Below are positions 53,565 through 60,600 of a DNA stretch of 64,000 nt, in pieces. The DNA comes from an uncultured Pseudomonadota bacterium (GTDB taxonomy: Bacteria > Pseudomonadota > Alphaproteobacteria > Rs-D84). How positions within the stretch are numbered: position 1 is the first letter of the stretch; each line of letters starts with the position of its first letter. A model generated the notes under the pieces. The model had not been told where the DNA came from and made no database searches. It saw nothing but the letters and a program-made list of their open reading frames with translations. The DNA is taken from assembly GCA_902802115.1 (NCBI GenBank), contig CADCKW010000001.1:216700-280699 (forward strand), written 5' to 3'. The translations under genes were made by a program, and so were the position numbers.

Positions 53565-53644
53565 GATGTCAAAAATAAATAAAAGATTTGCAAATTTATA
53601 ACATATCGGTTAAAATATTTCTGCATTGATGTGTTGTCAGTGTG

Positions 53645-53775
53645 GGTCAAGAAAACCCTTTGTTAAGAAAAAAACTCCAATCAGGTTGGAGGGCTGCGAA
53701 TATTTGAATAAGCAGCACTATCCTTAACAATAGTTTTCTTGCCTCCAACCGCACATTTTTTGCGGTATTTTTTTT
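53645..53775 (+). ncRNA. Riboswitch-like structured RNA ending in a terminator
   Basis: A closed junction is visible. P1 is AAGAAAAC (53649-53656) with GTTTTCTT (53733-53740); P2 is TTGTTAAG (53660-53667) with CTTAACAA (53723-53730). Inside are P3 CTCCAA/TTGGAG (53675-53691) and P4 GCTGC/GCAGC (53693-53716). Directly 3' is a terminator, ACCGCA/TGCGGT plus eight T (53748-53775). A nine-base alternative helix pairs GGTTGGAGG (53684-53692, one arm of P3) with CCTCCAACC (53742-53750), overlapping the foot of the terminator. I match it to no known family; it is not SRP RNA, tmRNA or RNase P RNA. A 28-codon ORF follows. Confidence 0.6.
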
Positions 53776-53796
53776 AAATCAAGGGGAGGAAAGAAA

Positions 53797-53883
53797 ATGT
53801 CTATCGTTTTAATTGATGCGCGCCATGTTGGCGAACAATTACAGCGTGCCCGTCGTGGATTGCATACCATACGCATTTATTGA
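53797..53883 (+). CDS. Small ORF (28 codons) behind the structured RNA
   Basis: Begins seven bases after AGGGGAGGA, the strongest Shine-Dalgarno in this part of the window, and ends in TGA, followed by a terminator 12 bases later. The peptide starts MSIVLIDARHVGEQLQRARR and ends GLHTIRIY: basic, helical in the middle, not membrane-like. The GEQLQRARRGL part recalls the first helix of XRE-type helix-turn-helix proteins, so it may be a truncated regulator. Alternatively it is a genuine peptide or leader whose expression depends on the upstream terminator. Confidence 0.5.
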   Translation: MSIVLIDARHVGEQLQRARRGLHTIRIY

Positions 53884-53895
53884 ACCCTGTAATCT

Positions 53896-53921
53896 AAAAA
53901 AATGCCCAATCGGGCATTTTT
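53896..53921. terminator. Bidirectional terminator between the small ORF and ybaB
   Basis: AAAAAAATGCCC-AAT-CGGGCATTTTT, usable from both sides. It closes the small transcription unit on the plus strand. Confidence 0.85.
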
Positions 53922-60424: not shown

Positions 60425-60600
60425 CCCTTTGTGTTTTTGGTATGTCGCGTGATTTTTATTTTTTGCAACGCAAAAAATAAAAATACCGCCTACAACGGAG
60501 AGCGGTCGGGGTGTTCGAAAAATCACAAAAGTCAATGATCCTGCACGTGTTGCCAGGCGCAGCCACCCCGCCAATAACGGCATGGGGTTAATCATTGGGA
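60425..60600 (-). promoter_or_regulatory. Structured leader upstream of the LamG-like gene
   Basis: On the minus strand several nested stems occur: a perfect 15-base arm pair (ATTTTTATTTTTTGC / GCAAAAAATAAAAAT, about 60.454-60.486 kb); an ACCGC/GCGGT hairpin followed by ATTTTTATTTTTT that looks like a terminator; and outer pairs CAATGAT/ATCATTG and GGGGTG/CACCCC. The terminator-like part lies ahead of the start codon, so conditional readthrough is possible. No conserved family recognised. Confidence 0.5.

Follow-up and report, generated by a model that had tools for sequence, protein, structure and literature searches.

Within the window, the whole 64,000-nucleotide stretch of DNA analysed here, a structured element ahead of a short open reading frame (ORF) is, with good confidence, a leader RNA that acts in cis on an intrinsic terminator and represents a new form of the sRNA-Xcc1/C4-like type. 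Promoter, leader, terminator, Shine-Dalgarno (SD) sequence and start codon are co-linear on the plus strand. The predicted sigma-70-type promoter (TTGCAA-17-TAAAAT, 53588–53616, 9/12 consensus matches) is followed by P0, a 5′ stabilising hairpin found by folding at the presumed RNA start (53623–53643). By eye, many other copies likewise have a −10-like box ahead of P0, and P0-equivalent hairpins of differing sequence occur in other copies.

The leader itself consists of overlapping pairing strands. Px (53644–53658, strands 53644–53647/53655–53658) is a local GGGU/ACCC hairpin of the antitermination fold, supported by swaps and folding, and its loop contains the P1 5′ strand. P1 (53648–53656/53733–53741, covariation) has a b1-like 5′ strand, while P2 (53660–53667/53723–53730, swap tests) joins a hypervariable a1-like 5′ strand to a 3′ strand that is the P5 loop. 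Strand A (GGUUGGAGG, 53684–53692; swap tests) forms either the 3′ side of hairpin P3 or, with 53742–53750, the antiterminator P6. P3 (53675–53691, stem 53675–53680/53686–53691; covariation and swap tests) has a 5′ strand that is a partial copy of strand B and rivals B for strand A. P4 (53693–53716, stem 53693–53697/53712–53716) is present in both folds and carries a conserved (G/A)AAUA...GAAUA(A/U) internal/terminal loop; P5 (53717–53734, stem 53717–53721/53730–53734) has an a′-like loop, and both hairpins are supported by covariation. Strand B (CCUCCAACC, 53742–53750; swap tests and folding), the 3′ strand of the antiterminator, overlaps the 5′ arm of the intrinsic terminator, which is recognised by sequence and folding (ACCGCA/UGCGGU plus U-run, 53748–53775; hairpin 53748–53766). 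Beyond it lie the SD sequence AGGGGAGG (53782–53789), the 28-codon ORF (53797–53883) and a second terminator of the AAATGCCCAATCGGGCATTT type (53900–53919), recognised by sequence and with many short genome matches. As a side observation, AAATGCCCAATCGGGCATTT (53897–53921) is a terminator sequence of standard type that recurs throughout the genus. An earlier sequence-only reading of this DNA had placed helices P1–P4, the terminators, the SD sequence and the ORF exactly where they are found; its hairpins were correct, yet it overlooked P0, Px, P5 and the multi-copy nature of the element.

At −44.7 kcal/mol, the window leader folds more stably than its dinucleotide shuffles (−26.8 ± 3.8 kcal/mol, z −4.75). 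Since the minus strand of the element folds equally well (z −5.9), the plus-strand orientation rests on the layout and on wobble pairs. G-U pairs and A-C mismatches on the sense strand number 79 vs 9 in 114 near copies and 95 vs 11 in 96 distant copies, in an alignment fitted to the structure, which biases the counts somewhat toward a G-U excess.

Covariation supports each of the two competing folds, in P1/P2 and P3 for one and in P4/P5 and the antiterminator P6 for the other. Changes on both sides occur in 5/6 modelled pairs of P1 (99.2% paired), in 3/4 pairs of P5 (100% paired) and in 12/15 pairs of P1, P4 and P5 together; the entire structure is 97% paired, against 38–50% with slid partners. 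P2, in which the region behind the P1 5′ strand pairs with the P5 loop, is hypervariable but keeps its complementarity. An intramolecular P2 of at least 6 bp forms in 98/114 near copies (swapped partners: mean 20, max 33) and in 81/96 distant copies (swapped: mean 16.4, max 24). In one genome (G040), P2 sequences are distinct in 22/22 copies, the P5 stem being identical and strand B 90% identical, and P2 reaches 6 bp in 21/22 own pairings versus 69/462 cross pairings. Strands A and B are almost invariant in near copies; in distant copies A, B and the P3 5′ strand vary in concert. The pairing score of P6 in the 96 distant copies is 22.5 versus 16.1 ± 0.3 after swapping (max 17.05), and that of P3 in distant copies 17.8 versus 13.6 (max 14.3), with covarying P6/P3 examples at L180 (GGCGAGAGG/CCUCUCGCC), L212 (GGCGGGAG/CUCCCGCC) and L216 (GGCCAGAAG/CUUCUGGCC). 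Px scores 10.98 with its own partner and 9.91 with swapped ones (max of 300, 10.36). Strand A is thus selected for two alternative partners, which is strong evidence for a switch. The sequence-only reading had proposed just such a nine-base alternative helix (53684–53692/53742–53750) within a terminator/antiterminator layout; the helix is present, and its covariation in distant copies strongly supports that layout. It had also held that a lack of conservation and covariation in relatives would speak against the proposal, and the covariance-model search that it suggested found both.

A terminator-like hairpin accompanies 176/225 copies compared with 7/1,125 shuffles in a permissively scored search, and in most of those 176 the terminator with its U-run starts at base 5–6 of strand B; under the rule applied, 49/225 copies are without a terminator. 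In the window, the terminator fold (−50.9 kcal/mol) lies below the antiterminator fold (−42.4 kcal/mol), and forcing P6 by itself is enough to produce the whole alternative fold, with Px, P4 and P5. Across copies, the terminator fold is lower in 92/94, by a median of 10.1 kcal/mol. Because the terminator fold is lower in the window and in nearly all copies, the P1/P2 fold with termination is likely the default state in these folding models. A preference of 8–10 kcal/mol also means that the ON fold must be kinetic or triggered.

Computation shows the folds, their mutual exclusion, covariation, layout and distribution; the direction and efficiency of switching and the trigger are what we infer. 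Transcription would start at P0. In the OFF state, the 3′ domain (the P5 loop and the strand following it) would pair back with the 5′ strands of P2 and P1; strand A would be held in P3, and the ACC of the free strand B would join the terminator, stopping transcription. In the ON state, the 5′ strands would be occupied or held in Px, allowing the C4-like domain to fold on itself with P6 enclosing P4 and P5. Strand B would then be consumed, the terminator would lack half its stem, and RNA polymerase would read into the gene. P1 and Px, and likewise P2 and P5, could coexist as pseudoknots rather than alternate. As P2 is hypervariable and copy-specific, like the specificity loops of C4, the trigger is by analogy more likely an RNA or protein occupying the 5′ address strands or the P4 loop than a metabolite.

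The arrangement resembles terminator/antiterminator riboswitches and attenuators in its mutually exclusive folds, in an antiterminator lying over the terminator 5′ arm (an overlap conserved by covariation) and in tandem copies, three of which stand before one gene at L097, L085 and L035 as in tandem riboswitches. It differs from such riboswitches in being without a known ligand and without a metabolic theme in the controlled genes. A metabolite-binding riboswitch, with the conserved P4 loop and the P1/P2 junction as binding site, would account for the orphan-riboswitch look: many copies per genome before functionally related genes, tandems, the conserved (G/A)AAUA...GAAUA loop and the terminator platform. 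Across lineages, however, the genes concerned are unrelated (symE cassettes, phage antirepressors, XRE-type genes, surface proteins) and show no theme of biosynthesis or transport, and both the relatives of the RNA and C4 use antisense pairing. The riboswitch explanation is distinctly unlikely; a small-molecule ligand is not evident for the leader, nor is sensing needed. Leader-peptide attenuation, considered for an SD-like GGAGG followed by TTG AAT AAG in the window, was rejected because the frame and start are not kept in copies (L008, L021).

The cis-acting leader is widespread in its lineage. A DNA search found one 77% copy in the own genome and copies in 34/59 relatives. The covariance model R1, built from 20 copies, matches 130/141 sampled genomes of the genus (Candidatus Enterousia-like, Alphaproteobacteria) at least 1,287 times, a lower bound summed over genomes with at most 24 matches counted in each, and one genome of ~0.9 Mb holds at least 28 copies. 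The window element, which had been thought isolated and the leader of no known gene, is in fact one of eight model-detected copies in its own genome and of more than 1,000 in the genus. R1 also matches 179/201 genomes of the order; in the class sample, 12 of the 15 R1-positive genomes fall outside the order and belong to other families, most with genomes of 0.9–2.1 Mb. Among about 297 other Pseudomonadota genomes there was no R1 match, and a weak one outside the class (E 0.16) coincides with a site of RF02221, the Rfam model of sRNA-Xcc1. A pattern scan of named genomes led to Candidatus Enterousia and other gut, rumen and termite alphaproteobacterial MAGs; Enterousia is placed in order Rs-D84, genome sizes being about 1 Mb or below (PMC12306168). 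The copy numbers are underestimates, because R1 misses a GC-richer sRNA-Xcc1-like subtype. In Enterousia, this subtype was observed with terminators at L310, L311 and L313 (G103, G105; GGUCGGGG/CCCCGACC). The window probably holds a second, divergent copy of sRNA-Xcc1-like type on the minus strand (60497–60572; RF02221 25.2 bits, E 0.018). Its match is weak alone, and the assignment draws support from its sequence layout: strand A/B-like GGCGGGGUG/CACCCCG, then a terminator, then a signal-peptide-type ORF from 60414 (minus strand).

Copies of the RNA also lie near pnp/ybaB in several species (L067, L041, L174, L007) at differing positions and orientations, which suggests an insertion-prone site. 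Such scatter is what a non-functional dispersed repeat or mobile cassette would produce, its structure being mere DNA-level inverted repeats, and relatives of the RNA do occur in integron cassettes and phages, while the window copy drives a broken gene. Against this, P2 stays complementary despite being hypervariable, the covariation involves three strands, the sense strand has about nine times as many G-U pairs as A-C mismatches, and the parts from promoter to start codon are co-linear; a functionless repeat is highly improbable. In IMG/VR, three matches to the element were found, none demonstrably from a phage.

The genes behind the leader are placed regularly. The first good start codon lies 25–65 nt beyond the RNA in 180/225 copies (median 48), in a search that was again scored permissively and whose choice of ORF rewards nearness and SD, somewhat favouring this result. 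By a crude rule, about 40% of the downstream proteins look exported, compared with 17% of other ORFs. The families include small XRE-type HTH proteins, outer-membrane barrels, opacity and surface antigens, Listeria-Bacteroides repeats and pilin-like proteins, with single KilA-N and Bro-N proteins as well. Among 68 small downstream proteins, Pfam finds HTH_31 in 31, HTH_19 in 25 and HTH_3 in 20. A structure model of the downstream XRE-type protein (pLDDT 93) matches XRE-type PDB entries with probability 1.00 but E > 0.03. The downstream family thus shows the XRE/Cro-type HTH fold and the Pfam domains HTH_3/19/31; the window ORF lacks most of the domain.

The 28-codon ORF had been read as a tiny peptide gene under the control of the device; it is instead a truncated XRE-type HTH gene copy, as comparison with the intact 72-codon paralogue at L002 shows. 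It keeps the first ~20 codons of this ~72-aa gene, the remainder being missing or replaced, and the intact paralogue (G000:C1 near 297 kb) carries the same RNA. In the window, the leader probably has only the remains of an XRE-type gene left to control, and the other option raised from the sequence, a small RNA plus a degenerate XRE-type gene, came close to the truth. A third copy in the own genome (L003, G000:C3:63857–63936) precedes an intact XRE-type gene but lacks an internal segment reaching from the P4 loop to the terminator 3′ arm. Because this deletion removed the switch and the terminator 5′ arm, the gene is probably no longer under the switch; such a natural mutant fits the model.

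The sequence-only reading could match the RNA to no family, which is right for the window copy but not for its relatives. With gathering and permissive thresholds (E up to 10), Rfam gives the window copy no convincing match; the best weak matches in the window fall on the infC terminator, not on the element. The relatives, by comparison, match RF02221 (sRNA-Xcc1), whose gathering cut-off is 53 bits. Among R1-recognised relatives, L227/G455 alone passes it (66.2 bits), and Enterousia relatives score 35–50 bits. As RF02221 gives no match to the window copy even at E up to 10, the element is filed as a variant within the superfamily and not as a member of RF02221. R1 and RF02221 matches coincide at about 20 sites in Enterousia and other families, with 3′ ends within about 4 nt, and the RF02221 consensus structure corresponds to the P6-P4-P5 domain, the 3′ half of the leader. 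The two RNAs share the outer stem (P6) enclosing P4 with its AAUA..GAAUA loop and P5, and sRNA-Xcc1 also has upstream P1/P2 strands, outside the Rfam model. They differ in that sRNA-Xcc1 is catalogued as a free trans-acting sRNA of 87 nt, whereas the Rs-D84 form has the extra P3, overlaps with an intrinsic terminator and in most cases stays under the Rfam cut-off.

Swap tests on 30 RF02221 loci of other Pseudomonadota show two partners for the P5/P1-3′ region, one upstream (21.3 vs 16.6 ± 0.6 swapped) and one in the ribosome-binding region (19.1 vs 15.8 ± 0.6 swapped); L298 (CUUCUGAUAAG/CUUAUCAGGAG) is an example. Given both pairings, sRNA-Xcc1 seems to be the 3′ portion of a leader that regulates in cis and has a translational platform. 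The same loci gave no significant signal for a P3-like strand competing for strand A from upstream (15.7 vs 15.1, max 15.97). Outside the Rs-D84 group, the pairing strands recur a third time behind RF02221 RNAs, at the ribosome-binding site, as they do in phage C4; in the Rs-D84 copies, this third occurrence is essentially missing and a terminator is found instead. sRNA-Xcc1 lies upstream of symE in Xanthomonas cassettes (PMC12444791), and in phages RF02221 RNA lies directly before antirepressor genes. A plasmid search with one RF02221 locus gave no match. In the open-access literature searched, there was no earlier description of the variant or of sRNA-Xcc1 as a leader.

C4 of phages P1/P7 resembles the Rs-D84 RNA in lying just upstream of the controlled gene, in its outer stem with two hairpins and in having a hypervariable a′ loop and a b′ strand with upstream copies. 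The C4 loci, used as a positive control, show the same three-strand layout with upstream and ribosome-binding-site copies, in agreement with the mechanism described for C4 (PMC5320573). P1/P2 correspond to the C4-type upstream a1/b1 copies complementary to the loop and the following strand. Unlike the Rs-D84 RNA, C4 represses by masking the ribosome-binding site, with a′/b′ copies at the target; in the Rs-D84 copies, complementarity to that site scores 14.64 vs 14.05 (max of 60 swaps 14.51). Masking of the SD by the P5 loop, considered as a candidate, is essentially absent from these copies. The C4 model RF01695 has no match in the window, in the own genome or in the distant copies scanned; RF01695 and RF02221 matched different places, and Rfam does not group C4 (RF01695, in a clan with c4-2) with RF02221. 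Homology of the leader RNA to C4 is not established.

These likenesses bear on the possibility of a C4-like antisense RNA acting in trans, in which the A-P4-P5-B domain would be freed by RNase P or by termination, the P5 loop and following strand would bind other RNAs, and the terminator would merely end the sRNA. In Xanthomonas, RACE and Northern analysis detected sRNA-Xcc1 as a transcript of 88 nt (PMC2996969), and a trans-acting role was published for it (Chen 2011, as cited in PMC12444791). The C4 RNA of P1/P7 undergoes processing and targets ant mRNA (PMC5320573), and P2 addresses within one genome are all different, as in G040. A plain small RNA, however, needs neither the bases shared by P6 and the terminator nor the competition of P3 for strand A, and the copies stand at a fixed distance before well-formed genes, with ribosome-binding-site complementarity barely above chance. 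Action in trans is a serious possibility that still falls short of probable, and the cis-acting leader is the preferred reading.

On the cis-acting reading, a broader and rather speculative suggestion, less probable than not by a good way, is that a phage-type antisense immunity RNA became a large set of self-addressed transcription switches in tiny gut genomes. Each copy would have an address of its own in P1/P2; once released, its C4-like domain might pair with the corresponding 5′ strands of newly made transcripts, liberate the antiterminator and so keep its own gene on. In that case, sRNA-Xcc1 would be the 3′ half of a leader acting in cis across the whole of Pseudomonadota. If true, surface proteins and XRE-type regulators would be governed by numerous switches, each independent and heritable.

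The leader is among the most repeated structured leaders known to us for such small genomes, and in these uncultured, symbiont-like gut bacteria it stands before genes for surface proteins and small regulators. sRNA-Xcc1, so far described solely as a free sRNA that acts in trans and is linked to virulence, gains a testable cis-regulatory role and its missing 5′ half. A single RNA architecture links the control of phage antirepressors with integron cassettes and with surface-protein genes on chromosomes.
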